DNA from: Bacteroidota bacterium
GTDB lineage: Bacteria; Bacteroidota; Bacteroidia; NS11-12g; UBA9320
Reading direction: 5' to 3'
NCBI GenBank assembly: GCA_016124755.1
Contig: WGNA01000008.1
Location: 1-64,000, forward strand
DNA length: 64,000 nt
The notes under the pieces are model-generated. The model made no database searches. It was not told the origin of the DNA and saw only the letters and a program-made list of their open reading frames with translations. The position numbers were made by a program, and so were the translations under genes. This document shows positions 46,451 through 64,000 of this stretch, in pieces (within the stretch, counting starts at the first letter, position 1; each line of letters starts with the position of its first letter).

Positions 46451-47222
46451 CTCAATTCTTTACGAAAAGAAAGGCCGCGCGGCGTACATCACACTCAACC
46501 GTCCGGATGTTTACAATGCCTTCGACGACTCACAGAGTTACGAATTACAGGATGCACTGAAAACCGCAAGTCGCGACAATGAAGTTCGGGTGATTGTATT
46601 AACCGGAGCCGGAAAAGCATTTTGTTCGGGTCAGGATTTGAAAGCGATCGCAGGTTCTAAAAACCGATCTCTTCGGGATTCTTTAGATAAGAGATACAAC
46701 CCGATTATCACCGCAATGCGCGAAATGCCCAAACCCATCATCGGAATGATAAACGGTGTGGCTGCCGGAGCGGGATGTTCTTTAGCGCTCGCCTGTGATT
46801 TTATCGTTGCTTCTGAAAAGGCTTCATTCATTGAAGTGTTCATCAATGTAGGATTGGTACTCGATTCGGGTTCCAGTTACTTCCTCCCGAGATTGGTTGG
46901 AAGTGCACGTGCCTTTGAAATGTCGACTATGGGGACGAAAGTTCCGGCACAACAGGCGATGGAATGGGGAATGATTAACCGCGTTGTTGCTTCGGAAGAA
47001 TTAGAATCGGAAACGGCTAAGGTAGTTGCGTACTATGAAAATGCACCGACCAAGGCCATTGCATTAATGAAACGAATGCTGAATAAATCTTTCAATTCCG
47101 ATCTGGCAACCATGCTTGAATATGAAGCTTGTTGTCAGGAAATTGCCGGGAAATCGGAAGATTATCAGGAAGGCGTAAAAGCCTTTAATGAGCGGAGAAC
47201 ACCTGAGTTTAAAGGTTGTTAA
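46440..47222 (+). CDS. Enoyl-CoA hydratase/isomerase family protein, PaaG-like
   Basis: 260 residues, crotonase fold. Oxyanion-hole segments FCSGQDLKAIAG and NGVAAGAGCSLALACDF; the PaaG-type segment GLVLDSGSSYFLPRLVG replaces the usual second hydratase Glu region. PaaG isomerises ring-epoxide phenylacetyl-CoA; general enoyl-CoA isomerases look similar. No other paa genes are present, so a role in fatty-acid or other CoA metabolism is equally possible. Third gene of the rpoN transcript, overlapping its neighbour. Confidence 0.88.
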   Translation: MDFSSILYEKKGRAAYITLNRPDVYNAFDDSQSYELQDALKTASRDNEVRVIVLTGAGKAFCSGQDLKAIAGSKNRSLRDSLDKRYNPIITAMREMPKPIIGMINGVAAGAGCSLALACDFIVASEKASFIEVFINVGLVLDSGSSYFLPRLVGSARAFEMSTMGTKVPAQQAMEWGMINRVVASEELESETAKVVAYYENAPTKAIALMKRMLNKSFNSDLATMLEYEACCQEIAGKSEDYQEGVKAFNERRTPEFKGC

Positions 47223-47242
47223 AAGTTTATATTTTTACCGCA

Positions 47243-48556
47243 ATGAAAAATTGGCTTTTCCTTCCGTTCATCTTGCTGATGATCGGATCCGCCGCAGCAC
47301 AGGACTGTGGAACAACTTCATACATCGATCATCTCGAAACACTTTATCCCGGAATTAAAAAGAGCATGGATCAGTCGTATTTGTCGGCCGTGCGCATGAG
47401 TGAGGTTCAGTCTCTCGGTAAGTTTGTTCCAACCGATACCATCTTTACTGTGCCCATTGTATTTCACGTGGTCTATCAGAAAGCAGATCAAAATATTTCG
47501 GATGAATTAATCCTCAATCAACTGGCAGTTCTCAACGCCGCATTTAATCGCGAAAATGCCGATACTGTAAATACGCGTGATATTTTCAAACCGGTTGCCG
47601 GAAGTTCAAGAATCCGGTTTGTGATGGCATCTGTTGATCCCGAAGGAAACCCAACCGACGGAATTGAAAGACGGCAAACAACACTGGCATCCTTTAACGC
47701 AAGTGGAAATGCAACAACAACCGATTATGTGAAACAGGCGACTTATGGTCTTGCCGCCTGGGACGCACAGAAATATCTCAACATCTGGATTTGCAATCTC
47801 AATCTTGCGGACGGAACACGATCTTTATTTGGTTACGCGTATCCGCCGGTGAATGCAAATTTCTGGGCCTCCAATTATTATAAAACCGATCCTTATCAGG
47901 GTGTGGTTCTGCACTACGAAACCATCGGTAGAGGCAATCCTTCTAATCTGGATTCTGCGTATTACACGAATGAAAAAACCATGATTCACGAAGTCGGTCA
48001 TTATTTCGGACTACGCCATATCTGGGGAGATTCCCCGATAACGAGCTACGGCTGCAGTTACGACGACTATATCGACGATACTCCGAATGCGAAAACAAAA
48101 AGTTCCGGTTGTAATTATAGTGCGAATACCTGTAATGCCGACGCAATGCCGGATATGGTCGAAAACTACATGGATTATAGTTCCGCGAAGTGTACAAATA
48201 TGTTCACCAAACAACAGGTGGCAGTGATGCGGTACAATCTGATTAATCTTAGAACAACGCTTCCACAATCTCAGGAAATAATTGGCACCGAGATTCCGGA
48301 TGTCGAGATTGAAGGCGTTTTCCCGAATCCGTTTTTTGAATCTGTTTCGGTAACCCGAAAAGCTCCGACTGATGAAACCATTCACTTCACCATGACTGAT
48401 ATGTTGGGACGTGAAATATTCTATGCGGAACAAACATCTTCTGAGTATGTGGTTACCTTTAATGGAATTGACCTTCCAGCCGGAATATACTGGGTGAATG
48501 TTCAGGTCGGAGAATCCGGAACGGTTTACCGCCAAAAAATGATCAAAGGTTTTTAA
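47243..48556 (+). CDS. Secreted M43-type zinc metalloprotease with T9SS sorting domain
   Basis: 437 residues from ATG 47243. Signal peptide (residues 1-20, ending GSAAAQ). Zinc-binding motif HEVGHYFGLRHIWGD (HExxHxxGxxH) and a downstream Met region VENYMDYSSAKCTNMF fit the pappalysin/cytophagalysin family M43B; paired cysteines are nearby. The C-terminal 75 residues are a type A T9SS domain (VFPNPFFESVSV, GIYWVNVQVGE). A secreted or surface protease. A one-mismatch -7 element (TATTTTTA, 47229-47236) ends six bases before the ATG, suggesting its own promoter at the end of the rpoN transcript. Confidence 0.92.
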   Translation: MKNWLFLPFILLMIGSAAAQDCGTTSYIDHLETLYPGIKKSMDQSYLSAVRMSEVQSLGKFVPTDTIFTVPIVFHVVYQKADQNISDELILNQLAVLNAAFNRENADTVNTRDIFKPVAGSSRIRFVMASVDPEGNPTDGIERRQTTLASFNASGNATTTDYVKQATYGLAAWDAQKYLNIWICNLNLADGTRSLFGYAYPPVNANFWASNYYKTDPYQGVVLHYETIGRGNPSNLDSAYYTNEKTMIHEVGHYFGLRHIWGDSPITSYGCSYDDYIDDTPNAKTKSSGCNYSANTCNADAMPDMVENYMDYSSAKCTNMFTKQQVAVMRYNLINLRTTLPQSQEIIGTEIPDVEIEGVFPNPFFESVSVTRKAPTDETIHFTMTDMLGREIFYAEQTSSEYVVTFNGIDLPAGIYWVNVQVGESGTVYRQKMIKGF

Positions 48557-48970: not shown

Positions 48971-51900
48971 ATGGATACAAAATTTATTGCCATGAAATCG
49001 ATCGTTACCCGAATTGTCGCTGTGCTAATCTTATTCTCGGGATCGCTTGCAAATTCTTTAACCGCCCAACCCTGTTACTCCGGATATCGTTACCGGCAGG
49101 CAATTGTTCTGAGCAATGCAGGTTCGGCTCTCAAGAATTATCAGGTCGCGCATTTACTCAACACCTCTTCTCTGGTAAGTTCCGGTAAGATGAATTCTCT
49201 CGGGAAAGACATCCGCTTTTTGAGTAAACAGGGAAACGAATTAAAATACTGGATCGAAGACGGTACGATGAACACATCTACCACCCGACTCTGGATTAAA
49301 ACCGACAGCATCAAAGGTTATGGTCTCGATACCATTTACATGTTTTACGGGAATTCTTCGGCAACTCCCAAAAGTGATGCGTCGGCAACGTTCGACGTAT
49401 GGGATGATTTTAACGGAAGTTCACTTTCATCTGTCTGGTCGGGCTGCGGTTCAGGATCTTATTCGATCACCGGTGGTTTGCTAAAGTTGAATGCTTCTTC
49501 CAATACCATTCAGATTAAAGCCGGCACCGCCATTACGCATCCGGTTTGGATTGATGTTCTGGTTAATTCTGCTTCGGGTTCTAATGCATTGATCGGATCG
49601 GTGAATGCTTCCGGAAATGGTTATGCGGCAGGAATGTCTTCTTCGGCCAGAACTATCGAATCGGTAACTTCATCGTCTTGTGTAACTACAACCAATCTTC
49701 AATCAGTAGCGACATCTTCTTCAACCGGAGAGTGGTCGTTTGCCTGGGGAGGATCGGGAAATCAGAAGAGCGTCTGGACCTCCGGGTCTTTGAATTATAC
49801 ATCAAGCACGTATTCGTCAACCGGCTCTTTCAAACCCTTTGTTGCTGTTTCGGGAACAGGAACGCTTGAAGTTGACCACATCCGGATCAGACAATATGCC
49901 TCCAACCCGCCATCGGTTAGCACAGGTCCGGTTGTCGATATGAACTTTACGATAACTGCTACCTATGCTGCACCGCTTTGTGAAGACGGAACTCTTCGTC
50001 TTCGGGTAGATACCATAGTTGGCGCAACCTATTCGTGGGTGGGGCCGAACAGTTATTCTTCATCACTTCAAAATCCGATTATCACCGGCGTTAGTACTAA
50101 AGATGCCGGCCGGTACGATGTTACGGTTGACATTCCATCCGGATGTGCGAGCAAGTCATCTTCGGTGAACGTTAACATCTCTCCAAAAGCAAAAGGGGGA
50201 AGCGTATCCGGAACACAGACTGTTTGTTCGGGTTCTAATTCAGGAGTGCTTTCTCTGAGCGGACATACCGGAAATGTGGCGCGTTGGGATTCCAGCGCAA
50301 GTGCAACCGGTCCGTGGTATCCGATTACGAATACACAATTAAATCAAACCTATCTCAACCTAACGCAGAGCATGTATTACCGCGCGATTGTAACCAACGG
50401 CAATTGCTCTTTAGACAGTTCTGTTTATGCTAAAATCACGGTAAGTCCGCCGTCTGACGGAGGAAGTTTAACCGGTTCCACAAGAGTTTGTGCAGGTTCC
50501 AATTCCGGAACGATTTCGTTGAGTGGTTATACCGGCAACATTGTTAGATGGGAATACAGCGAGAACGGAAACCTCTGGAATAGCATGGTGAATAAAGGTA
50601 CATCTCACCAATATAGCAACCTCACTAAAACCATGTATTACCGGGCGGTTGTGCAGAATGGAAACTGCAACGTCGGGTATTCGTCAGTTGCCGTTGTTGA
50701 AGTGGATCTTGCTTCGCTTGGTGGGATCGCAAAGGGCGACACCATTGTTTGTCCTGATGATAACACCGGAAACATAATCGTTAGCGGAAATCGGGGTGAT
50801 GTAATTCAATGGGAAACGTCGTTGAACGGAACCTCAAACTGGCAAAGTCTTTCCGGAACTTCCGATACTTTTTCTTATTCCAATCTTTCCATCAACACAT
50901 ATTTCCGGGCGGTGATTAAAAACGGAACTTGTCCGGCTACCGAATCAACTCCGGCTTTTGTTGAAATGTTTGATAAGTCAGCTGCCGGTTCTATCAGCGG
51001 CGGATCAACGGTCTGCGAAGGTTCAAATTCAGGAACCATCAAGGTAACCGGAACAAAAGGCAACATTCTGAAATGGCAATACAGTAACAATCTCACTTCA
51101 TGGACTGATGTTGCTTCAACTTCAACTTCATTGAGTTGGTACAACCTTACCGACTCGACACATTACCGCGCGATTGCCGCTAACAAAGGTTGTAAAGCCG
51201 ACACATCGAACATCGAAAGTGTGTTTGTACACAAAGAAAGTGTGAGCGGTTACATTGCCGGAACCGATGAGGTATGTGTAACCGGAAATACCGTTACCAT
51301 TAATCTGAATTCATTTCGGGGAGACATTGAAAAATGGGAATATTCATCTACAGGATATGCGCCCTGGACAGCAGTTAATACAACGTCGTCATCCATTTCC
51401 GAAACCAATCTCCAGCAGAGCAGATACTACCGGGCTCTCGTGAAAAACGGTGTTTGTCCGAGAGCTACCAGTAGTGCTTTTGAAGTAAAAGTGAATGCCG
51501 TTACTAATGCAGGAACTGCCGGTCCGGATGTTAAAATCTGTGAAGGTGTGAACTTCGGAGTGATCAGTCTTTCGGGTGCAACCGGAGATGTTGTTAAATG
51601 GCAAAAAACGAATTCCCCTTCATCCGGTTCATGGAGCGACATTAGTAACGCAACCACCAAACAGGATTTTCAGAATCTGAATGATAATATCTGGTTCCGG
51701 GCCATTGTGCAAAACGGTGCTTGTCCGGCAGATACTTCAAACAATGCAATGGTTGAAGTTTCGTCTAACACGGTTGCCGGAACGCTGAGCGGAGAAGCCG
51801 GATTTTGTTCGAAGACCAATACAGGAAGTCTCACATTAGTTAATTATACAGGTGATGTTCAGTATTGGGAAATGTCTGAAAACAATGGAGATCAATGGAC

Positions 51901-53839
51901 CACTATGCCGATTAAAACGGATTCGTACAGCTACACCGATCTCAACAAAACCACCATGTACCGCGCGGTTATCAAAAACGGGGCGTGCAATCTTTTAACA
52001 ACGAATCAGTTAACCATTAGCATTGCCGAGCCATCGTTCGCCGGAAACATTTATTCTTCCGTTTCGGAGGTTTGTGAGAATTCAAACTTCGGAACCATCG
52101 TGGCGAATGATGCGGTTGGTGAAATAAAAGCCTGGGAATACAAAACGCCGGCAACCAACTGGACAACCCTGAAAAACACTACTAAGCAACTCAGCTATTT
52201 TAATCTCACAGAAGAAACAAGTTACCGCACAATCGCAACCAACTCATTCTGTAAAACCGATACATCAGCCGTCTTCACGATGAAGGTTTCCACGCCGACA
52301 GTTGGCGGTACTATCGTTGGAATTTCTCAGGTATGCGTCGGCATGTCGGATATTCAACTCAATATTACCGGTGAGAACGGTACGATTCAAAAATGGGAAA
52401 TGGCTTCCGACTCAAAAGGTCCCTGGATAGATCTTGCCGGAAATGTTGATTCGGTTTCGGTTATTAAACCACAGGCTTCTGCTTTTTACCGTGTAAAGGT
52501 AATGAGCGGAGCATGTCAGGCAGATTACAGCGAAATCTTTTCACTGCGGGTTGATTCGCACACGACCGGTGGAATTGTAACCGGAGGAATGGAAGTTTGT
52601 TCCGGATCGAATATCGGTTCACTGCAATTAAACAATCAGAATGGTGATGTGATCCGATGGGAAAGCAGAGAAATCGGTGTGCAAAACTGGAATGCCGTTG
52701 CCAACACGAATCCATCCTTTAATTATCAGAATATTACAGAATCAACCGAATACAGAGCGGTTGTGAAAAACGGAGTGTGCCCCGATTCCAACAGTAGTTC
52801 AACCACTCTTTTAGTGAATCCGATTCCGACCGTAGATATCGTTCACGGCAATCTTTGCGACGGATCGGTTATTAATTTTAAAGCGGATGCGACTATTACG
52901 AATGGAAATATCACCGGTTACAACTGGAATTTCTCAGACGGATTTACATCTCAACTCAACCAGTTCGACAAATCATTTTTACTGCCCGGGAAATACACAG
53001 TAACCTTAAAAGCCTTTACTGATAAAGGATGTGAAGCGATACATTTCGATGATCTGCAAGTGGGAGAGACACCCATGGTGTTTTTTAGAATAACAAAAGG
53101 CCTGACTTCCGAAACCGGCTGTTTGAACGATACACTCGTTTTTGAAAACCTTACAACCCATTCTGATCTCAGTGGTCTTGACTTCAAGTGGGATTTGGGA
53201 GACGGAACCCAAAGCACAGATTTCAAACCGACCAAAGCATACTCAATACCCGGAGATTACACGATTACACTTGACGTAACATCGAGAACCGGATGCGCAG
53301 AATCGCACAGTTCAGATTACACGATTTACGAACAACACAAGCCTATCGCCGGAAAGGATGTACAGGTGAGTAAAGGAATCGAAGTTCAGCTCAGCGCGAC
53401 CGGTTCGGTGGTTTACCGATGGACACCTGCAGACAAACTCAACGACGCAACCATTTCAAATCCGGTAGCTAAAATCTCCGAAACCACATTGTTTATCGTA
53501 ACCGGAACCGACTATTACGGATGCGAAAGCAAAGACAGCGTAATGCTTACCGTAAAAGATGATTATAAAGTACTCCCGAACAACGTGATTACTCCGGACG
53601 GAAACGGTGAAAACGACGTATGGCTCATTGCCAATCTCGAATCGTATCCGGATAACCGGGTAGTGATTTTCGATCGCTGGGGAAGAGAGATTTATTCGAA
53701 AGAAAGATATGAAAATGATTGGGGTGCAACCGATAAGGATGGCAGGTTGCTGATGGACGGAACCTATTACTATGTATTGGAATTCCCGGAAAAGAAAATC
53801 GTAATGAAAGGTGCCATCACAGTTATTAAAAACAGATAA
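48971..53839 (+). CDS. Giant Ig-repeat surface protein with T9SS type B (CHU_C) sorting domain
   Basis: 1622 residues; an internal Met at 48992 (MKSIVTRIVAVLILF) gives a more typical signal peptide and may be the true start. DUF2341-like domain (CYSGYRYRQAIVLSN to about residue 130) and a lectin-like beta-sandwich (to about 310) precede an Ig-like segment. About ten repeats of 86-90 residues follow (about 405-1290), each with a pattern like VC-GSNSGTI-LSG-TG-V-WE...YRAVVKNG-C, containing two Cys. Then two PKD domains (NWNFSDG, KWDLGDG) and the gliding-motility-associated C-terminus (NVITPDGNGENDVWLI, VVIFDRWGREIYSKE). Likely adhesin carried to the surface by T9SS with a PorP/SprF partner, which is the next gene. 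Confidence 0.92.
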   Translation: MDTKFIAMKSIVTRIVAVLILFSGSLANSLTAQPCYSGYRYRQAIVLSNAGSALKNYQVAHLLNTSSLVSSGKMNSLGKDIRFLSKQGNELKYWIEDGTMNTSTTRLWIKTDSIKGYGLDTIYMFYGNSSATPKSDASATFDVWDDFNGSSLSSVWSGCGSGSYSITGGLLKLNASSNTIQIKAGTAITHPVWIDVLVNSASGSNALIGSVNASGNGYAAGMSSSARTIESVTSSSCVTTTNLQSVATSSSTGEWSFAWGGSGNQKSVWTSGSLNYTSSTYSSTGSFKPFVAVSGTGTLEVDHIRIRQYASNPPSVSTGPVVDMNFTITATYAAPLCEDGTLRLRVDTIVGATYSWVGPNSYSSSLQNPIITGVSTKDAGRYDVTVDIPSGCASKSSSVNVNISPKAKGGSVSGTQTVCSGSNSGVLSLSGHTGNVARWDSSASATGPWYPITNTQLNQTYLNLTQSMYYRAIVTNGNCSLDSSVYAKITVSPPSDGGSLTGSTRVCAGSNSGTISLSGYTGNIVRWEYSENGNLWNSMVNKGTSHQYSNLTKTMYYRAVVQNGNCNVGYSSVAVVEVDLASLGGIAKGDTIVCPDDNTGNIIVSGNRGDVIQWETSLNGTSNWQSLSGTSDTFSYSNLSINTYFRAVIKNGTCPATESTPAFVEMFDKSAAGSISGGSTVCEGSNSGTIKVTGTKGNILKWQYSNNLTSWTDVASTSTSLSWYNLTDSTHYRAIAANKGCKADTSNIESVFVHKESVSGYIAGTDEVCVTGNTVTINLNSFRGDIEKWEYSSTGYAPWTAVNTTSSSISETNLQQSRYYRALVKNGVCPRATSSAFEVKVNAVTNAGTAGPDVKICEGVNFGVISLSGATGDVVKWQKTNSPSSGSWSDISNATTKQDFQNLNDNIWFRAIVQNGACPADTSNNAMVEVSSNTVAGTLSGEAGFCSKTNTGSLTLVNYTGDVQYWEMSENNGDQWTTMPIKTDSYSYTDLNKTTMYRAVIKNGACNLLTTNQLTISIAEPSFAGNIYSSVSEVCENSNFGTIVANDAVGEIKAWEYKTPATNWTTLKNTTKQLSYFNLTEETSYRTIATNSFCKTDTSAVFTMKVSTPTVGGTIVGISQVCVGMSDIQLNITGENGTIQKWEMASDSKGPWIDLAGNVDSVSVIKPQASAFYRVKVMSGACQADYSEIFSLRVDSHTTGGIVTGGMEVCSGSNIGSLQLNNQNGDVIRWESREIGVQNWNAVANTNPSFNYQNITESTEYRAVVKNGVCPDSNSSSTTLLVNPIPTVDIVHGNLCDGSVINFKADATITNGNITGYNWNFSDGFTSQLNQFDKSFLLPGKYTVTLKAFTDKGCEAIHFDDLQVGETPMVFFRITKGLTSETGCLNDTLVFENLTTHSDLSGLDFKWDLGDGTQSTDFKPTKAYSIPGDYTITLDVTSRTGCAESHSSDYTIYEQHKPIAGKDVQVSKGIEVQLSATGSVVYRWTPADKLNDATISNPVAKISETTLFIVTGTDYYGCESKDSVMLTVKDDYKVLPNNVITPDGNGENDVWLIANLESYPDNRVVIFDRWGREIYSKERYENDWGATDKDGRLLMDGTYYYVLEFPEKKIVMKGAITVIKNR

Positions 53840-53862: not shown

Positions 53863-55866
53863 ATGAATACAATGAGAAAGACAGGATTAATGACATTGCT
53901 GATGTCGGCCGCATTTATTGCCGGTGCGCAGCAATCACCCTTACTCAATCATTATTACGTGAATCCGTTTTTAGTGAATCCGGCTTCGGCTGGTGAATTC
54001 GGGACGAACATGTATCTGTTGAACCGAAGTCAGTGGATGGATGTGCAGGGAGCTCCACAAACTTTTGTCGCAACCATTGACGGAATGGTCGGGAAAACCA
54101 AGTTGGGTTACGGATTAACATTTTCAAACGACGTGGTGAATATTGTTGGGAAGACGTCGATTTACGGGACGTACGCATACAAACTTCCGTTGTTTAAAGA
54201 CGCACAACTCGCATTTGGATTGTCGATCGGATTTGAGCAAAACCGTTTGTTGTTTGATCGTGTTCAGGCCGCAAATCCGGTTGAAGTAACACTCATTAAT
54301 AACGTAGTTAATCAATCTAACTTCGACGCAAATTCTTCCTTTATGTTTACCTGGAAGAACCTGAATTTTGGTGGAGCGGCATTTCAATTATTAAATAACC
54401 GGAATACGTTTTCAGATCAGGTTAATCAGAGAGATTACATTTATGCATTTAACCGGCATTACGTTTCGACCCTTCGATACCGGGTTGAAATTGAAGAAAA
54501 CAAACTCTATCTAGATCCCTATATCCAGGGCAGATATGCCTTTCATATCGCTCCGCAGTTCGATATGAATATGATGCTGAATTGGGCTGATCAGGCCTGG
54601 ATCGGAGGCGGTTACCGAACCGGATTCGGAGCGAATGTTATGATCGGAGGTGTACTCGGAAGGCATCTCGTGGGAAGTTATTCTTACGGACAGAGCATCG
54701 GAACACTTCAGAAGCTCAGCGCGAATTCACATGAATTTATGATCGGTTACAAATTCGACGGAGTTGTGAATCGGAAAGACAGCGATCACGACGGAGTTGT
54801 GGATGCTATTGATAAAGAACCGAATACTCCGGAAGGATGTGAAGTGAATGAATTCGGAGTGGCGCACGACGACGACCGCGATGGAGTTCCGAACTGTAAA
54901 GACCATGAACTTACCACACCACTCGGTTCGAAAGTAGATGAAAACGGTGTTGCTTTGGATGGCGACGGAGATGGTGTACCGGATCTTTTTGACCGCGAAA
55001 TGGATACGCCGAAAGGCTGTACCGTTGATAAAGTAGGAGTTGCCTTAGACACCGATTTCGATGGCGTTCCCGATTGCATTGATAAAGAAATGAAAACCCC
55101 GATCGGTGCTCCGGTTGATGCAGATGGAATTGCGCTGGATGCCGATAAGGACCTCGTTCCCGATTTTTATGATCTAGAACCGAACACACCGCACTGGGAA
55201 CACGTTGGATCCGATCCTTCTGTAACAGCGGCCAAGTGTATCGTAGACAAACACGGAGTTGCACTTGATTCGGATGGCGATGGCATTACCGATTGCGTGG
55301 ATAAAGAACCCAACACACCACGAGGTGCTTTGGTTGATAAATTCGGAATTTCCATCGATACCGATCACGATGGCGTTCCAGACGGACTTGATGTGGAAGT
55401 GGATTCTCCGAGAGGAGCGAAGGTTGACAAGTGGGGAAGAAGCCTTCCGAACGGAAACAAAGCAGATGATGATGGCGACGGAGTTCCCAATTCGGTTGAT
55501 CTGGAACCCAATACTCCGAAAGGCAAAAAAGTGGATGAATACGGAAGAGCGGAAAAACCGGCCAATCCGGTTACAGCTAACAAATTAGAAATTCAGGATA
55601 TGGTCGACAATGATACGGAATGGGATTACTACATGATTGTTGGAGTGTTCCGTATTCAGAGCAACGTAAAAGGATATCAGGAAAAATTAAAAAACAAATA
55701 TGGCGAACCAACAAAGGTGCTGGTAACCGAAGCCGGATATTATTACGTATGGACTAAAAAAGTTACAACCAAAGAGGAAGCTTACAAAGAAGCAGATCGG
55801 TTAAAGAATAAAAATATCGAAGACTTTATTGTGGGAAATCCGTGGTTGTGGAGAGAAGCGAAATAG
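53863..55866 (+). CDS. PorP/SprF-type outer-membrane protein fused to TSP3 repeats and a SPOR-like domain
   Basis: 667 residues. Signal peptide to about residue 22. Residues 23-300 form the PorP/SprF barrel: QQSPLLNHYYVNPFLVNPAS, LLNRSQWMDVQGAPQTFVAT, and final strands GSYSYGQSIG and HEFMIGYKFDG. Residues 305-560 contain about seven calcium-binding thrombospondin type 3 repeats (DSDHDGVVDAIDKEPNTPEG and similar). Residues 585-667 resemble a SPOR domain (YYMIVGVFRIQSNVKGYQEK, YYYVWTKKVTTKEEAY), which binds glycan strands lacking stem peptides. It follows the type B adhesin gene after 23 bp, so they form an operon; PorP/SprF proteins assist export or anchoring of such adhesins. The fusion would tether the barrel to peptidoglycan. 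Confidence 0.9.
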   Translation: MNTMRKTGLMTLLMSAAFIAGAQQSPLLNHYYVNPFLVNPASAGEFGTNMYLLNRSQWMDVQGAPQTFVATIDGMVGKTKLGYGLTFSNDVVNIVGKTSIYGTYAYKLPLFKDAQLAFGLSIGFEQNRLLFDRVQAANPVEVTLINNVVNQSNFDANSSFMFTWKNLNFGGAAFQLLNNRNTFSDQVNQRDYIYAFNRHYVSTLRYRVEIEENKLYLDPYIQGRYAFHIAPQFDMNMMLNWADQAWIGGGYRTGFGANVMIGGVLGRHLVGSYSYGQSIGTLQKLSANSHEFMIGYKFDGVVNRKDSDHDGVVDAIDKEPNTPEGCEVNEFGVAHDDDRDGVPNCKDHELTTPLGSKVDENGVALDGDGDGVPDLFDREMDTPKGCTVDKVGVALDTDFDGVPDCIDKEMKTPIGAPVDADGIALDADKDLVPDFYDLEPNTPHWEHVGSDPSVTAAKCIVDKHGVALDSDGDGITDCVDKEPNTPRGALVDKFGISIDTDHDGVPDGLDVEVDSPRGAKVDKWGRSLPNGNKADDDGDGVPNSVDLEPNTPKGKKVDEYGRAEKPANPVTANKLEIQDMVDNDTEWDYYMIVGVFRIQSNVKGYQEKLKNKYGEPTKVLVTEAGYYYVWTKKVTTKEEAYKEADRLKNKNIEDFIVGNPWLWREAK

Positions 55867-56307: not shown

Positions 56308-58194
56308 ATGAAAAATAATGTGGTAAGATTAATCTGTTCAGTTTGTTTTTGTTTGAGCTGTTTGAATTTTTCATTTGCTCAAAACTTATCCTCAACAAAA
56401 CTTTTAGGGGGTTCTGTGCCATTGGTAGTAGAAGTGAGTCCGGACAATTCCTATTTTGTTGGAACATATGCGAACTACGACGAGGATTATATTCCGGATC
56501 AGCAATTTCCTAAAGTATTTTTTGAGCAAAAAAGAGATGCTTTTGTATCGAAATTTTCCGCCGATTCCAAATATCAATGGACTGTTTGGTTTAAAAGTGC
56601 TGATGTGATGGGGCTCCAATTATTTCCAGACCAAACCGGATGCGTGGTATTATTGAGGTACCTCGGAAATGATGATACTTTGGATATTCGACAGAGCGAC
56701 GGATCTTGGGTTCAACATTTTACCGGAAAAAATGGGAAGGCCCACAATGGCACTTCTTTATTTCGTATAAATATGAAAGGCGAGATCATAAGTCAATGGC
56801 AGATAGATCCGTATTATTGGGAAAGCAACAACCTATACGCATTTAAGGATAATGGAAATATTGTGTTAAATATTCCATTTGCACATCCCATAAAATTTGC
56901 TGCTGCATCCGATAGTATTTATCCGGAAGAAATGAAACTGGGATTTTGTCGAGTAACGTTATCTCCCGGAACTTTTCATCAGGAGGCATTTGTTCAATTA
57001 CCCTATTTCTCGAGTATGATGAACACCGGGAGAACGTATGCGAATACCTTCCTAATTTCCCAAATACAATATCGGGGAGATACTGCATCCAAAACAGATG
57101 GAAGACTCTATTTTAATTTTCTGAACGGAGTGTATAAAGATTCTCTGATTGTGGGTTCCAATATAAATATTGAAAACTCGATTTGTTTTTCGGATACCTT
57201 ATATCTACTAACCATTGAACCAAATTTTGGAAAAACCTGTACGATTAATAATCACGTAATTAATTCCGATGGGAGCAAGGTCTGGACTAAATGGGTAAAA
57301 GGTGAATTAATGGATTCCATTCATTTCTTAAGTAGGTTTAATGCTGAATTAATAGCATCGGATGCCGGGAAGAAATTTGTGCATTTTACCTATACTGCAG
57401 AAAATGAAGAGTCGGTCTTTAAGAATGTGAAATTTTTTAACGGCCGGTTGCGCTATAAAAGCGGGAACTGGTTTGAGTGCTGGGGACCGGTAAGCGGTGA
57501 TAGTTTGGAATGGATTAGTTTTTTAGAGGCAACTCAGAATACAAATGGAGCGCTAGGCCCTCTGGATAATTTAAGGATTTATGGAGACCAACAATATTTG
57601 ACCAGAAAACCTGTGCATTATGTTGATTTTGATCCGGGACCTTATGAATGGAAATATAATCCTTCAACTACAGTTGGAATTGTTTTAGCCAAATACAATT
57701 GCAAACCAAACGCAATATTTACATTTACTCAAATTGATCAAAGAGTGGATTTTATTAATTACTCATCAGGATCCGATTCCTTTATTTGGGATTTTGGATT
57801 TTCTGGTGGTTCATCAAAAGTTTTGAATCCGGTTGCTCATTATCCACATGTCGGAGAATACACTGTGAAGTTGATTGCTTTTAATCAATGTGGCTCGGAT
57901 ACATTTGAATTCCCGGTAACTATCGACAAAATTTCAAATGTTAAAAAAACACATGACTGGTCATCGGTCTTTCGGGTTTATCCCAACCCGGCAAATGATC
58001 GGATCAATATTTCCGGGCCGAATGTAGATTATACAATTTCACTTTGTACAACCTCAGATGGTAGTGTTGTAAGGATGTTAAAAGTCAGACGTAACGGGGA
58101 ATTGGAGATTGGTGAAATTCCTTCAGGATTGTACGTTGTGGTAATTGAAAGTGAATTGGGAAGGGTTAGTAAGTTGGTGCAGATAAGGCATTGA
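56308..58194 (+). CDS. Secreted PKD-domain protein with T9SS sorting domain
   Basis: 628 residues. Signal peptide (residues 1-24, ending LNFSFAQ). The large middle part has many beta-strand-like segments and no recognised domain; the sequence VEVSPDNSYFVGTYA suggests a beta-propeller-like start. PKD domain at about 470-545 (FIWDFGFSGGSSKVLNPVAH, YTVKLIAFNQCG). Type A T9SS domain at the end (VYPNPANDRINISG, GLYVVVIESELGR). Surface or secreted; function unknown. Convergent with the next gene. Confidence 0.83.
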   Translation: MKNNVVRLICSVCFCLSCLNFSFAQNLSSTKLLGGSVPLVVEVSPDNSYFVGTYANYDEDYIPDQQFPKVFFEQKRDAFVSKFSADSKYQWTVWFKSADVMGLQLFPDQTGCVVLLRYLGNDDTLDIRQSDGSWVQHFTGKNGKAHNGTSLFRINMKGEIISQWQIDPYYWESNNLYAFKDNGNIVLNIPFAHPIKFAAASDSIYPEEMKLGFCRVTLSPGTFHQEAFVQLPYFSSMMNTGRTYANTFLISQIQYRGDTASKTDGRLYFNFLNGVYKDSLIVGSNINIENSICFSDTLYLLTIEPNFGKTCTINNHVINSDGSKVWTKWVKGELMDSIHFLSRFNAELIASDAGKKFVHFTYTAENEESVFKNVKFFNGRLRYKSGNWFECWGPVSGDSLEWISFLEATQNTNGALGPLDNLRIYGDQQYLTRKPVHYVDFDPGPYEWKYNPSTTVGIVLAKYNCKPNAIFTFTQIDQRVDFINYSSGSDSFIWDFGFSGGSSKVLNPVAHYPHVGEYTVKLIAFNQCGSDTFEFPVTIDKISNVKKTHDWSSVFRVYPNPANDRINISGPNVDYTISLCTTSDGSVVRMLKVRRNGELEIGEIPSGLYVVVIESELGRVSKLVQIRH

Positions 58195-58210: not shown

Positions 58211-61200
58211 TCAATTATTTTCAATGATCATCGACTTCTCTAAAATTACATTCTCTGTTTCGAGTCTGTAATGATATATGCCGGAAGCGAGATTGGTAAC
58301 GTTGAACTGAATGTGGTTTTTGCCTGTTTGACCCTGTCCTTCAAATAAGGTTTGTATGAGTCTGCCATGGTTGTCGTACAAAAGCAGTTTGCAACGACAA
58401 GACGAATTCAAATTAAAATCAATATACATCTCACCATTTCCTGGATTAGGTACGTTTTGAAATAATTCGATTCCGTTTGTGGACATGGTTCCAGGAATTC
58501 CAACATCATCAATTGCCAATCCTGATACTTTGATTCCATACCGGCCCATCTCCGGGTCATTGTTGTTTATATAAAGAGAATCGCCATGCGATCCAATGGT
58601 GACAGGCGAAAAGGTTAGAATTAATTCAACTGAATCGTTCGGTAGAACCCAGATAGGAATGGATGTATTTTTACCGAAAAAGTCTCCGTTCAACCAACTT
58701 AGTTTGTTAATTACTAAAGTATCTGTTCCAATGTTCTTTACCCAAAATGTATCTTCATTGGTGGTCTTTATTTTAGTGTCATTAAATACAAACGAATCAG
58801 TTGTTTGAATTTTAGCCCAGATTGTTGAAAGTGCAATTATTCCGTCTTGATCGCCATTTAATCCGGTGTGTGTTATAACATATTTTAGTTCGGTTGAATC
58901 AGACATTTGTTGATTGTTGTATTCAAAGTCAATCTCAGCATTTTCTGAACTGTCGAGCAGAATATCGGTTGGCAGGGTTAGATGAAGATTGTTGATGTTT
59001 AATGCCTTCACATTCGTTAAACTTAACGTATCTGTTCCAATGTTTTGAACACGTATTTTACCTGTTACAGGAGCATTAATTTTAGTTTTACCTAATACGA
59101 GCGGGTTATTGTCAATTTTAAGAATGCCGCCTTTAACATTGCCAATGAAAGTTATTGAAGTGTCGGATTTCCAGTTGACAGAATTAGAAGTGAAAAATAA
59201 CGTGTCTAGGTCTTGTACCTGCCCGGATGGCTTGTACACAGATGTTAGAGTAACTGAATCTCCCGGTTGCAAGTGCGTACCGTTTATGCTTTTGCTTAAT
59301 TTAAAATCAGATCCTTTGCCCCAAAACGCATTATTTAATACGAGTTCACCGTCACCAATATTTTGCAAAACAAACGTACGTAGAGAGCTGTCATTTATTG
59401 CAACCACACCATGGTCTACACTTGTATTTGATAATAACCCGAAACCATCTGTTCCTTTAATCGGTATAATTACCTTGGTAAGTTGGTAAGCGAAGTAATC
59501 GTGATATACGACATGAGTGTCAAATTCAATATTTGTGGTGGCCGGAACAAACCACGAACTAATTTTCAAACTATCTTTTTCAAGTATGGATGCGGCTCCG
59601 ATTTGTATGGGTACTAAGTTGTTTTCGGAACGTATTGAGTCGATATGTAATGTTAGTTCTCCTGAATTTTTTAAGGTATAGCTGCACATTGATTTTATAC
59701 CTACTAGGGATTTTAGCGTATCGAGATACAATGTCTTTTCAATAAAAGAATAGATTCCTTTTCCCATGATTCGCATTCTTGAAGAATCATTTGTGCCGTT
59801 GTGAAACAGCCAGAGATCAGCGCTGAAGGATTCTCTTTGATCGGGTGCAAAAGAACCAACAATATGTACTGTTTGTCCGGTATTAATTTTAATCGGAAAA
59901 GTATTTTTAATATTAAACTGAGTATCTCCCTTCATTTTGAAACCCTGAATTTCTAAAACCGCATTTCCATTATTGGTTATGTAAAATGAATCTGAATAAA
60001 AACCAGTTACCATCTTATCTCCGAAATCAAGTGTAGAATCGGATAATGAAACTTCCGGACTTTCTTCTCTGTAAATCAGTGTAATCTTTGTTTTGGGATT
60101 GATGAAATAATTGTGATTTATCTGAATAGATTCGTATTGATAAACCTGAAGATTTGTCCAATAGTTAAAAATAATTCTACCGGAATCACCCGGAAGAATC
60201 ATGGCAAATGTGTCGATCAGGTCTATCTGAGAAGAATGGGTAATGGATGAAGTGAAGAGCGTGTCGGTTCCTGTATTTGTTAGATAAATTGTGTCTCTAA
60301 ATTTTTTATTTCTGGTAGTTGGGGGTAAGTAATAAGTCTTTCCGGATACAACTTCCGGAGAAACAGTGAACCCTTCAAAACGCAGATTCGTTGTGTAACT
60401 GTCCCATATAATCTTGCCGTTGGTTTTGCGAACGCCTAAGATCGAAGATTGAAAACCCGACAGACCATGTATTGTGTCGAAGGCTGAAATGGAACGTGTA
60501 AGACCTGTAATCGAAAATTGTGTTGCGTCATTGGCTTTGGTAAGTGAAATATTTATTCCCGTGCCAAGAGTATTGTATATAATGAAATCTTTGTATACCG
60601 GATGACCATATTTGGCGGAATCAAATACCACGATGGAAGCTCCATGTATGATATTTTGAATAACGGAATCCCGGGTTGAGTTATAAATAAGTAAACTACT
60701 GATTACCGCCCCGTCACACAGCGGTTTAAAATCAACTTTTATTTCCACACTATCGCCAATATTGAGTTGAATGGGAAGGGCGTAAGGTGTGCTCAACGTA
60801 ATCCAATCCGGCATACCGGTTCTGATACTGTCGATGGTTAATTGGTAATTTCCGATGTTTTTATAAATAATTTTTTGCGTTTGAATAGAATCAATGTATT
60901 CGGGATCAAACATCAATTCGCGGGGTCCGGTAAGCAGTCCTGTGTATCCGAAATAACTTACCAAAACGTGGGTTGTTGAATCCTTAAAGTAATCGTGATG
61001 TATTACAAAACTATCTTTCGTGGAACCAATTGAACCTGATTTAACACGGTAAACTACAATTCCGCTATCGTGAGGCGGAATGTACTTTTGATAGTAGATT
61101 GGACTGCAATATTTGCCGGAATTTATTTTGAGAATATGGAGCGTGTCGGTTCCCGTATTTTGAATATAAAAGGTGTCGAGATTATTTGAGGAGGCATAAA

Positions 61201-64000
61201 TGTTACCCGGATTTCTATAAAGCGTGTCAACAACTTCCGGTGCTATTCCACGGCATTTTAGAGCAACATTAAAAGTATCATTTGCCGAATTATTAAGGAT
61301 TTTTAATTCGGAAATAATTGCACCTGTATCAGAAGGCATGGCATTAACGAAAATCCAGACCGAATCACCGGGCATTATCGCTCCAACTATTTTTTGATTA
61401 ACACTGAAATCGGAGTTTTGAATCAGGCTGCCGGATAGTTTCAAAGTATCGGTTCCCGAATTCTTTATGGTAAATGCAATAGATGATGAATCGCCGACCC
61501 GGATTTCTCCGAAGTTCAAAGTATCATTTGCCAATTTTATTCGGGCAGCGGGAATAGTTTTAGCCCTGACATAAATAAACTTTTCTTCAGACAATGGCGT
61601 GGTTTTTATCGTGATTGTATCCAGATAGCTGCTAACGGAATCTCCATTGTAATTAATGATTAATGATGAATTAGCGTTACTGCTTATTAACTGTTTCCCA
61701 AATCCCTTCTTGGTTTTTATCGATAAAAACGGGTTGTGACCTGTGAATAAAATTGTGTCGATCGTTATATCAAGGGTACCTGAATTGTTTAAATCCACAA
61801 CCGATGAATCGGAACCATACTGAGGTAATTCAAAACTTATGTTGCCAGGAGTAGCATCGAATTCATAAGGATGATTACTGTAAAATCGGTAATAATAATT
61901 TGAACCCGGGAAATAAATTACAATTAAGTCCTCTGCACCATCGCCATCATAATCTGATATAACAATCTGTTTGGTTGAATTCATATAATGACCCTTTTCA
62001 ATAAATTTCAAACTGGTGTCTGAAACATTTGTGTACATGAATATTGAATCACTTGTATAGGCAATCACGTCCAGCAAGCCATCGCCGTTTAAATCACCCA
62101 AGCTGTTGATAATGCTTTTCGGATAAAATAACTCCGCGGTGAATTCAACTTTTCCGGGTTTTGACTTATTGGTTAAGAAAACAGTTTTATTGGATGCTGC
62201 CCCGCACATTCCCTGACCATAACAGATCAGATCCGGCTTCTCATCGGAATTCAGATAAACAACATATGCTGATAAATCGGTATTTTTTGCGGTACAATAT
62301 TTAAATGTATCCAGAATATCGTAGGCAAGCCGAAAACTAAATTTTCCAGGAGTTGATTCGTTCAGATAGATTTTGCCTCCGTCTACCAAATCTTTTCTGC
62401 CATCTCCGTCTATGTCGGCTGAGGTAAATCCGGATGGAGGATCGGGAAATCGGTTTAAAGTATCGGAAATGTATTTAACAACCATGGAATATTTATCCAT
62501 TGGAATTGTGGAGTGATTAAACTGATCGGAAATACTGGAAATAATATAAGTAGAATCCAGCACCCAGATTATATCCGGAATTCCATCCTGATCAAAGTCG
62601 TGGACAATTCTTTTAGCTCCGTGTCGTGGATCGTGAAGCCCGGCAAATTGATACATTTGGGAATATGGATAGGTTAGTTTAAATCCCGAATCATAATGAG
62701 GAGTTATAACAAACATTCCGTCGCAAATAGGACTGAGGCCACTGCAGTATGCACCGTAATCAATCGTTAAAAAATCTGTTTCACCATCGCGATTTAAATC
62801 CTGAAGATAAAAATCCGGACTTTTAGAGTAGGGATAAGATGATTTTCTCGCAATCGATACACTGGCTGCCTGATTAAAACTAAATTGGTTTTCATTGCTG
62901 TCTGCATCCGGAATCACAACAAAGAGACTGGAGCCCGGAGTAGTTGAATTATAATCTGTTTTGCCCGTTAAATCCAATTGACCATCATGGTTAATGTCGA
63001 TTAATTGTACGCTGTAAAATGGCAATTTGGAAATCTGCGCGGAATTAACATTCGGACTTTTATATAAAGAATCTAAGTGGAAATAATCCAACGACAGTAT
63101 TCCTCCCGGCCCGGATCTTTTGGGTCGTATTGACATTGCGGATACCGCACCAATGTGATTGATGGTGTCGGTAACTTCAACTTCTGTAATTCCAATTTTA
63201 GATGGGATAATAAATTTGTACAACGTGTCTGACGTAAAAATTGGCGTGAGGTTTTGTGCACTCACATTCACCACATTCGGATTTCCATTCCTGTTTAAGA
63301 GATGTTTGCCAAATATTGAAATCGTGTCACCAGCAACGAAAGTGAAAGGACGTAAACTATCAATTTTTGGCGGATCTGTATATTTTCCGATAACTATCTG
63401 AGGGATTCGAACAGCGCCTCTCTCAAAGGAAAACCAAAGAGTATCTTCAAAACTTTGCGTCCTTATTTTATTGTTATTCCAGATATAAAATTTAAGTACT
63501 CCGCCGGTGTCAAGTACAATTGGAAATTTTAACTCAGCGGTAAGAGTTGAATCTATGATTTCAAAGGCCGGGTTGAATGAAATGGAATCAAAAATAACCG
63601 GTACCAATCCCAGATTTACCGCATAAATGGGTTCAAAAGATGAAAAAGATGCCGTATCAGCGGATCTTAAAAAAACCGGTTCATTAATTGATTCTTTCTG
63701 AAACGGATACAAAGCCTTGTTCATATCATGCTCAAGCTCAGACCATACTTCGGTTTTCTTAAGCTGATTGATATAGGTTGTTTTATTAGAAATTACATCG
63801 GGGACATAATCTCCGTTCACATCCATTATTAAGGATAAATTGCTTGCACCGATTGAAAACGGTTTATCAAATGACAACCCGCTGCTGTCACTGGTATTCA
63901 TGAAAATATAGCCGTTCATGAAGAAATCCGGTTTTCCGTCACCATCAAAATCACTGGCTCTAATTACACCGCCGCTCATGTTGTACGAATACAACGAATC
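58211..64000 (-). CDS. Very large FG-GAP/VCBS and ASH-like repeat surface protein with T9SS domain (5' truncated)
   Basis: More than 1927 residues; the frame is open to the window edge, so the signal peptide is outside. N-terminal part: an integrin-like FG-GAP/VCBS region with calcium-loop motifs DFDGDGKPDF, DINHDGQLDL, DLNRDGETDF, DFDQDGIPDI, DIDGDGRKDL, DLNGDGLLDV and DYDGDGAEDL. From about residue 830 on, roughly ten choice-of-anchor D/ASH-like beta-sandwich repeats (TLNFGEIRVGDSSSIAFTIK, NSGTDTLKL and similar). Type A T9SS domain at the end (LFQNVPNPGNGEMYIDF, GIYHYRLETENVI). A surface adhesin or scaffold is likely. Confidence 0.9.
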   Translation of the reverse strand, partial: DSLYSYNMSGGVIRASDFDGDGKPDFFMNGYIFMNTSDSSGLSFDKPFSIGASNLSLIMDVNGDYVPDVISNKTTYINQLKKTEVWSELEHDMNKALYPFQKESINEPVFLRSADTASFSSFEPIYAVNLGLVPVIFDSISFNPAFEIIDSTLTAELKFPIVLDTGGVLKFYIWNNNKIRTQSFEDTLWFSFERGAVRIPQIVIGKYTDPPKIDSLRPFTFVAGDTISIFGKHLLNRNGNPNVVNVSAQNLTPIFTSDTLYKFIIPSKIGITEVEVTDTINHIGAVSAMSIRPKRSGPGGILSLDYFHLDSLYKSPNVNSAQISKLPFYSVQLIDINHDGQLDLTGKTDYNSTTPGSSLFVVIPDADSNENQFSFNQAASVSIARKSSYPYSKSPDFYLQDLNRDGETDFLTIDYGAYCSGLSPICDGMFVITPHYDSGFKLTYPYSQMYQFAGLHDPRHGAKRIVHDFDQDGIPDIIWVLDSTYIISSISDQFNHSTIPMDKYSMVVKYISDTLNRFPDPPSGFTSADIDGDGRKDLVDGGKIYLNESTPGKFSFRLAYDILDTFKYCTAKNTDLSAYVVYLNSDEKPDLICYGQGMCGAASNKTVFLTNKSKPGKVEFTAELFYPKSIINSLGDLNGDGLLDVIAYTSDSIFMYTNVSDTSLKFIEKGHYMNSTKQIVISDYDGDGAEDLIVIYFPGSNYYYRFYSNHPYEFDATPGNISFELPQYGSDSSVVDLNNSGTLDITIDTILFTGHNPFLSIKTKKGFGKQLISSNANSSLIINYNGDSVSSYLDTITIKTTPLSEEKFIYVRAKTIPAARIKLANDTLNFGEIRVGDSSSIAFTIKNSGTDTLKLSGSLIQNSDFSVNQKIVGAIMPGDSVWIFVNAMPSDTGAIISELKILNNSANDTFNVALKCRGIAPEVVDTLYRNPGNIYASSNNLDTFYIQNTGTDTLHILKINSGKYCSPIYYQKYIPPHDSGIVVYRVKSGSIGSTKDSFVIHHDYFKDSTTHVLVSYFGYTGLLTGPRELMFDPEYIDSIQTQKIIYKNIGNYQLTIDSIRTGMPDWITLSTPYALPIQLNIGDSVEIKVDFKPLCDGAVISSLLIYNSTRDSVIQNIIHGASIVVFDSAKYGHPVYKDFIIYNTLGTGINISLTKANDATQFSITGLTRSISAFDTIHGLSGFQSSILGVRKTNGKIIWDSYTTNLRFEGFTVSPEVVSGKTYYLPPTTRNKKFRDTIYLTNTGTDTLFTSSITHSSQIDLIDTFAMILPGDSGRIIFNYWTNLQVYQYESIQINHNYFINPKTKITLIYREESPEVSLSDSTLDFGDKMVTGFYSDSFYITNNGNAVLEIQGFKMKGDTQFNIKNTFPIKINTGQTVHIVGSFAPDQRESFSADLWLFHNGTNDSSRMRIMGKGIYSFIEKTLYLDTLKSLVGIKSMCSYTLKNSGELTLHIDSIRSENNLVPIQIGAASILEKDSLKISSWFVPATTNIEFDTHVVYHDYFAYQLTKVIIPIKGTDGFGLLSNTSVDHGVVAINDSSLRTFVLQNIGDGELVLNNAFWGKGSDFKLSKSINGTHLQPGDSVTLTSVYKPSGQVQDLDTLFFTSNSVNWKSDTSITFIGNVKGGILKIDNNPLVLGKTKINAPVTGKIRVQNIGTDTLSLTNVKALNINNLHLTLPTDILLDSSENAEIDFEYNNQQMSDSTELKYVITHTGLNGDQDGIIALSTIWAKIQTTDSFVFNDTKIKTTNEDTFWVKNIGTDTLVINKLSWLNGDFFGKNTSIPIWVLPNDSVELILTFSPVTIGSHGDSLYINNNDPEMGRYGIKVSGLAIDDVGIPGTMSTNGIELFQNVPNPGNGEMYIDFNLNSSCRCKLLLYDNHGRLIQTLFEGQGQTGKNHIQFNVTNLASGIYHYRLETENVILEKSMIIENN

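Follow-up and report, generated by a model that had tools for sequence, protein, structure and literature searches.

A PorP/SprF barrel continued by TSP3 repeats and a SPOR domain in uncultured Bacteroidia, a putative wall-anchored shuttle for a type-B adhesin

The way in which type-B T9SS cargo is retained on the cell surface, and what separates moving from static adhesins, is a current question in work from 2022 to 2025 (PMC9143113, PMC12618676, PMC12635249). SprF carries SprB and is disulfide-bonded, through the CxC motif of its C-terminal tail, to GldK of the moving track (PMC12635249); some type-B cargos of F. johnsoniae stay static and are connected with a PorE homologue (PMC12618676); and PorP of P. 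gingivalis binds PorE, the C-terminus of which binds peptidoglycan (PMC9143113). In this study, a locus was investigated in which a shuttle-type barrel, a repeat stretch and a SPOR domain stand in one gene, raising the question of whether a shuttle can itself be the wall anchor of its cargo. The locus lies in a stretch of 64,000 nucleotides from a Bacteroidota bacterium (contig WGNA01000008.1), which is called the window here. An earlier sequence-only reading had described one 667-residue frame joining a PorP/SprF barrel, TSP3 loops and a SPOR-like C-terminus, and the profile matches agree with that description. The features of the gene are as follows.

53863..55866, plus strand: PorP/SprF-TSP3-SPOR fusion gene (P0001), 667 aa, a single open frame kept in 11 genomes
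53863..53928, plus strand: signal peptide, residues 1-22, predicted cut between A22 and Q23 (Bacteroidetes Q-rule)
53929..54762, plus strand: PorP/SprF outer-membrane barrel, residues 23-300, about 14 predicted strands (PF11751, TIGR03519, AlphaFold2, Foldseek)
54778..55500, plus strand: eight TSP3-type Asp loops, residues 306-546 (strict motif eight times; PF02412)
54838..55296, plus strand: three Cys pairs, 326/345, 386/405 and 459/478, each 19 residues apart, likely repeat-stapling disulfides
55600..55863, plus strand: SPOR domain, residues 580-667 (PF05036, AlphaFold2, Foldseek)

The frame starts with ATG, ends with TAG and is uninterrupted throughout. A frameshift merging two genes had been named beforehand as the finding that would overturn the fusion, but the same stop-free single frame was observed in ten orthologues from other genomes, which rules out frameshift or misassembly as its origin and makes the chance of such an artefact practically negligible. 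Altogether, the architecture was found in 11 genomes of three genera of the window's GTDB family, namely g1 (the window's own genus), g3 and g9, with identities of 62-64% in the five g9 genomes and 41-46% in the five g3 genomes; at similar identity, it was not found outside these genera among 295 genomes of the class. The named orthologue records are metagenome-assembled Bacteroidia. In comparison with the g3 orthologues, the SPOR domain is the best-conserved segment (56-59% identity), the TSP3 stretch is intermediate (48-51%) and the barrel is the least conserved (30-41%). The predicted signal-peptide cut is based on the Q-rule (PMC5837995); A22, Q23 and Q24 are unchanged in 11 of 11 orthologues, and no lipobox Cys was detected in the signal peptide.

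The barrel is matched by PF11751 (PorP_SprF) over residues 21-296 at 2.5e-45 with 155.6 bits (cut-off 22.3), and by TIGR03519 (T9SS_PorP_fam) over residues 4-298 at 4.3e-48 with 164.3 bits (cut-off 90.55). The full-length AlphaFold2 model, obtained from an 11-row alignment, displays about 14 barrel strands with a mean pLDDT of 73.5, and Foldseek matched this model to outer-membrane barrels, including the T9SS translocon chain 6h3i_F, although the result says only "outer-membrane barrel" and its TM-scores are low owing to the inclusion of the rod. Since the predicted number of strands is even, both ends of the barrel should be periplasmic; with the N-terminus in the periplasm, the rod and the SPOR domain would also be located there, which supports the side of the membrane to which the SPOR tail had been assigned before. 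The Cys-X-Cys (CxC) motif of the SprF gliding-track subclass is absent from the fusion protein, with cysteines occurring only in the TSP3 repeats, and profile searches detected none of the PorE domains (TPR, beta-propeller, CRD, OmpA) in it.

Behind the barrel, the strict TSP3 calcium-loop motif D.D.D...[DN]..D starts at residues 306, 336, 366, 396, 426, 469, 499 and 535, with a spacing of exactly 30 residues for most of the loops. In 2000 shuffles of the protein the motif occurred 0.015 times on average and at most once, against the eight observed, while the PF02412 match (1.8e-4, 21.5 bits) is under its gathering cut-off of 25. The repeats are thus real, as had been read from the sequence, but their number had been put at about seven and the strict motif counts eight. 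All six cysteines of the protein lie within these repeats and form the three pairs listed above. The pairs are intact in nine of 11 sequences, and in two g3 orthologues both cysteines of the first pair are gone together; such a loss as a unit fits disulfides within the rod. With eight loops of canonical type and cysteines in three pairs, a calcium-stiffened spacer is plausible. In the AlphaFold2 full-length model the repeat stretch is mostly ordered, with block means of pLDDT of about 75-86 in repeats 1 to 4, and confidence drops around the insert at 440-460 and past residue 510. This insert, between loops 5 and 6, contains histidines (HWxHxG, residues 441-459, approximately 55183-55239 of the window) and is conserved, being missing in one sequence (L012); it is possibly a hinge or a metal site.

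For the C-terminus, the sequence-only reading had asked for structure prediction and fold comparison, with a fold unrelated to SPOR as the outcome that would speak against it. Both were carried out and gave a confident SPOR fold. PF05036 matches residues 589-657 at 8.6e-5 with 23.2 bits in the whole-protein scan and at 3e-6 with 27.9 bits when the tail is scanned alone (gathering cut-off 21 in both cases). The segment modelled alone by AlphaFold2 has a pLDDT of 89.7 and a pTM of 0.81, with the element order E-H-E-E-H-E, that is, the beta-alpha-beta-beta-alpha-beta order of the RNP-like SPOR fold, which the C-terminus of the full-length model displays as well. Its first Foldseek match in the PDB is the CwlC SPOR domain 1x60 (1.7e-4, prob 1.00), and the top 16 also include the SPOR domains of RlpA, FtsN, DamX and DedD, whereas sequence matches of the SPOR profile in the PDB, up to an E-value of 1, are CwlC and FtsN only, and weak (0.02-0.03). 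The ligand site is different. RlpA Q270 and R309, the equivalents of FtsN Q251 and R285, are key glycan contacts (PMC6895207), and in the profile alignment FtsN Q251 corresponds to I592, W283 to Y626 and R285 to Y628 of the fusion protein. The Gln position is I or V and the Arg position is Y in 11 of 11 sequences, and Y626, Y628, W661 and W663 are invariant in the 11 orthologues, the latter two on the last strand. The fold is therefore that of SPOR, yet by this alignment the canonical denuded-glycan contacts are absent, and binding of the cell wall, though likely from the context, is putative.

The context is formed by the gene upstream, for which the following features were obtained.

48971..53839, plus strand: type-B-CTD adhesin, 1622 aa, with DUF2341, Ig_7 repeats, PKD and a C-terminal CHU_C, presumed cognate cargo (CHU_C 2e-23, TIGR04131 2.8e-13)
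53579..53824, plus strand: type-B sorting domain (CHU_C) of the adhesin (3.9e-25)

The adhesin ends 23 bases before the start of the fusion gene, and its CHU_C has the top score among the 45 CHU_C places in the window's genome, so that the link to a type-B adhesin suggested earlier is upheld by a CHU_C/TIGR04131 gene directly upstream. A type-B gene is also directly upstream in the five g9 genomes, with a CTD 65-70% identical, whereas in the five g3 genomes no type-B gene adjoins the orthologue, the place directly upstream being taken by an M43 peptidase that has a type-A CTD. A homologous M43-type metallopeptidase is encoded in the window at 47216-48556 (plus strand); here the type-B adhesin gene separates it from the shuttle gene, which means that the lineages differ by an insertion or a loss of the adhesin. 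At 58211-63994 (minus strand) the window encodes a repetitive secreted-type protein of 1927 residues, the end of which resembles a type-A CTD, and the end of the window (47216-48556, 56308-58194, 58211-63994) is rich in likely T9SS cargo.

Two other PorP genes of the same genome have a comparable position and tail: one (C1:194078) lies behind a type-B gene and carries a coiled-coil/Pro-rich linker with a SPOR tail (1.1e-9), and the other (C6:48754), also behind a type-B gene, carries a coiled coil with an OmpA tail (2.7e-22). Three further strong PorPs of this genome are tail-less and adjoin a GldK gene (544 bits, over cut-off) or a GldJ-like gene. With 45 CHU_C places and only six strong PorP/SprF genes in the genome (G000), an own shuttle for each type-B cargo is rejected, and most of the cargos are presumably orphans that share shuttles. 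Full-length PorE-like proteins are also found in this genome (C13, C12), which weakens the view that the fusion simply replaces PorE. A 598-residue frame (L006, G000:C12:46184-47212, minus strand) is similar to the middle part of PorE (260-470, 2e-26) and has, near its end, SPOR at 20.7 bits, just under the cut-off, and is possibly a PorE-like protein with SPOR replacing OmpA. Another outer-membrane-barrel-like protein, which is not a PorP but carries TSP3 repeats, a linker rich in Pro and Lys, and SPOR, was also observed (L003/L065 at G000:C1:162360-165548, and L064 in G032), with a TraB (NF033763) match over its TSP3 part.

A survey of the window's family (f1) covered 68 PorP/SprF genes in 17 genomes. 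The tails were called with local profiles and representatives were checked with Pfam, a g3 group (L111 and relatives) being SPOR by local profile only. A SPOR or OmpA tail was found in 35 of the 68 genes; 30 of these 35 immediately follow a type-B gene, and the remaining five are the fusion's orthologues in g3. Conversely, every family PorP directly behind a type-B gene (30/30) has such a tail, and not one of the 33 PorPs without a tail occupies such a position (Fisher p 1.8e-14, with relatedness ignored, the genes representing perhaps eight to ten orthologue groups and not 68 independent events). The tails also differ in cysteine, which is present in the last 45 residues of 32 of the 33 tail-less proteins against none of the 35 wall-tailed ones. 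The cysteines of the tail-less proteins are single or spaced, unlike the exact CxC of SprF, and a disulfide to GldK is therefore something that we infer for them.

The survey was extended to all PorP matches in 14 genomes of 14 other families of the class, of which those in frames at least about 390 residues long were examined. Nine wall-tailed PorPs were disclosed in eight of the 14 families, seven with SPOR and two with OmpA, and a type-B gene immediately precedes each of the nine. The Pfam cut-off was passed by seven (five SPOR, two OmpA); L165, which is the same protein as L060, has SPOR at 20.9 bits, just under the cut-off, and L173 is SPOR by local profile only. None of the nine has TSP3 repeats, and the TSP3-linker version seems to be confined to the window's family. 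In two PorPs that follow type-B genes (L162, L169), the tail is a coiled coil without a recognised domain, so that the strict tail rule of the window's family fails across the class. Both surveys reject a fusion unique to one species, and the uniqueness implied by the sequence-only reading was mistaken, because PorP-SPOR and PorP-OmpA proteins, their linkers coiled-coil or Pro-rich, are found repeatedly in Bacteroidia.

From these data we consider it probable that the fusion is a type-B shuttle which tethers its adhesin to the wall, one chain doing the job proposed for PorP together with the separate wall-binding lipoprotein PorE. It would be the dedicated PorP/SprF-type shuttle of the adhesin encoded just upstream, its barrel picking up the type-B CTD at the T9SS translocon and retaining the adhesin on the cell surface. 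Its C-terminus would extend into the periplasm as a rod of eight disulfide-stapled, probably calcium-loaded TSP3 loops, with the SPOR domain at the rod end fixing the complex to the cell wall, and the adhesin would be anchored in place and not pulled along by the GldJ/K track. For a protein without CxC and with SPOR at its end, the best reading is a shuttle acting as its own wall anchor, and a putative tether of its own fits the genome context and the repeated SPOR and OmpA tails of the paralogues. The missing Gln/Arg contacts, the full-length PorE-like proteins in the genome and the g3 genomes without an adjacent type-B gene count against it.

Other explanations give the same domains a different role. 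The SPOR domain may be a localiser, not a general tether, bringing the adhesin shuttle to the division septum or to new poles, the sites of enriched denuded glycan, with the side wall left to the OmpA-tailed paralogues. As a rule, SPOR domains locate to the septum and have denuded glycan as their ligand (PMC6895207), and shuttles with SPOR and OmpA tails occur in one genome, each behind its own type-B gene; nevertheless, the Gln/Arg contacts of septal SPOR domains were not kept in the clade, and we regard this role as unlikely. The same loss would be accounted for if the fold had been repurposed for a protein or another glycan, the aromatic row of Y626, Y628 and W/Y630 with W661 and W663 replacing the Gln/Arg site. 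The four invariant aromatics, which lie on or close to the strand of FtsN W283/R285 and the final strand, and the slight sequence likeness of solved SPOR domains (best E 0.02), agree with this, but a Pfam score over the cut-off, best Foldseek matches to peptidoglycan-binding SPOR domains, and OmpA tails in the same position of paralogues, which point to the wall as the common target, make it somewhat more doubtful still. It is improbable that the protein is a plain OmpA-like link from outer membrane to wall, with no shuttle role and the PorP barrel a leftover scaffold: such a link would be in line with a barrel that is the least conserved segment and with the g3 arrangement, but g1 and g9 keep the adjacent type-B gene with its similar CTD, and the PorP profile scores remain high.

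Set beside known systems, the putative wall-tethered shuttle combines familiar parts. It shares the barrel family with the shuttles SprF, Fjoh_3951 and PorP, and in g1 and g9 its gene immediately follows one for a type-B CTD protein. SprF, however, ends soon after the barrel with the CxC bonded to GldK and, though behind sprB, has no wall domain, whereas the fusion lacks CxC and continues for about 365 residues of TSP3 and SPOR. With PorP-PorE-PG1035 of P. gingivalis and Fjoh_3952/3951/3950 it has in common a surface type-B cargo on a PorP-like barrel linked to peptidoglycan, as proposed for the fusion, but those systems reach the wall through a separate PorE-type lipoprotein bearing OmpA, and here SPOR is on the shuttle itself. 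Outside T9SS, the design most like it is that of TraB of Myxococcus xanthus, the partner of the adhesin TraA, in which a barrel is combined with TSP3 and OmpA (PMC12045341); TraB differs in its OmpA wall domain, in a partner that is no T9SS cargo and in not being PorP/SprF, and the similarity probably reflects convergence or shared modules. PA1041-family and OmpA/OprF-type anchors likewise have a TSP3 stretch, to which that of the fusion is similar (NF053612, 7.8e-10), followed by a wall-binding domain, but their final domain is OmpA and no PorP barrel is present. FtsN, DamX, RlpA and CwlC share the SPOR fold as the best structural matches, and differ in that the SPOR of the fusion is joined to an outer-membrane barrel and lacks the Gln/Arg contacts. 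In the open-licence PMC text, no description of a PorP/SprF-SPOR fusion was found. The component families are known, and the TSP3-SPOR form is a new variant in one family of uncultured Bacteroidia; fusions of PorP with wall-binding domains as a whole are recurrent in the class and likewise not described in that text.

The natural fusions of a shuttle with SPOR or OmpA provide Rosetta-stone support for the proposed link from PorP through PorE to the wall. Beyond the single locus, we put forward, with less confidence than the tether itself and as a tentative possibility, that the C-terminus of PorP/SprF proteins sets the fate of their cargo, a short Cys tail leading to the moving GldK/GldJ track and a SPOR or OmpA tail to the wall. 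The fusion would then be an extreme wall-pinned case, with a TSP3 rod stiffened by calcium and disulfides and a glycan site rebuilt from Gln/Arg to aromatics. The most valuable outcome of this study is that the C-tail of the shuttle, track versus wall, may serve as a simple and testable sequence rule for mobile versus static cargo.
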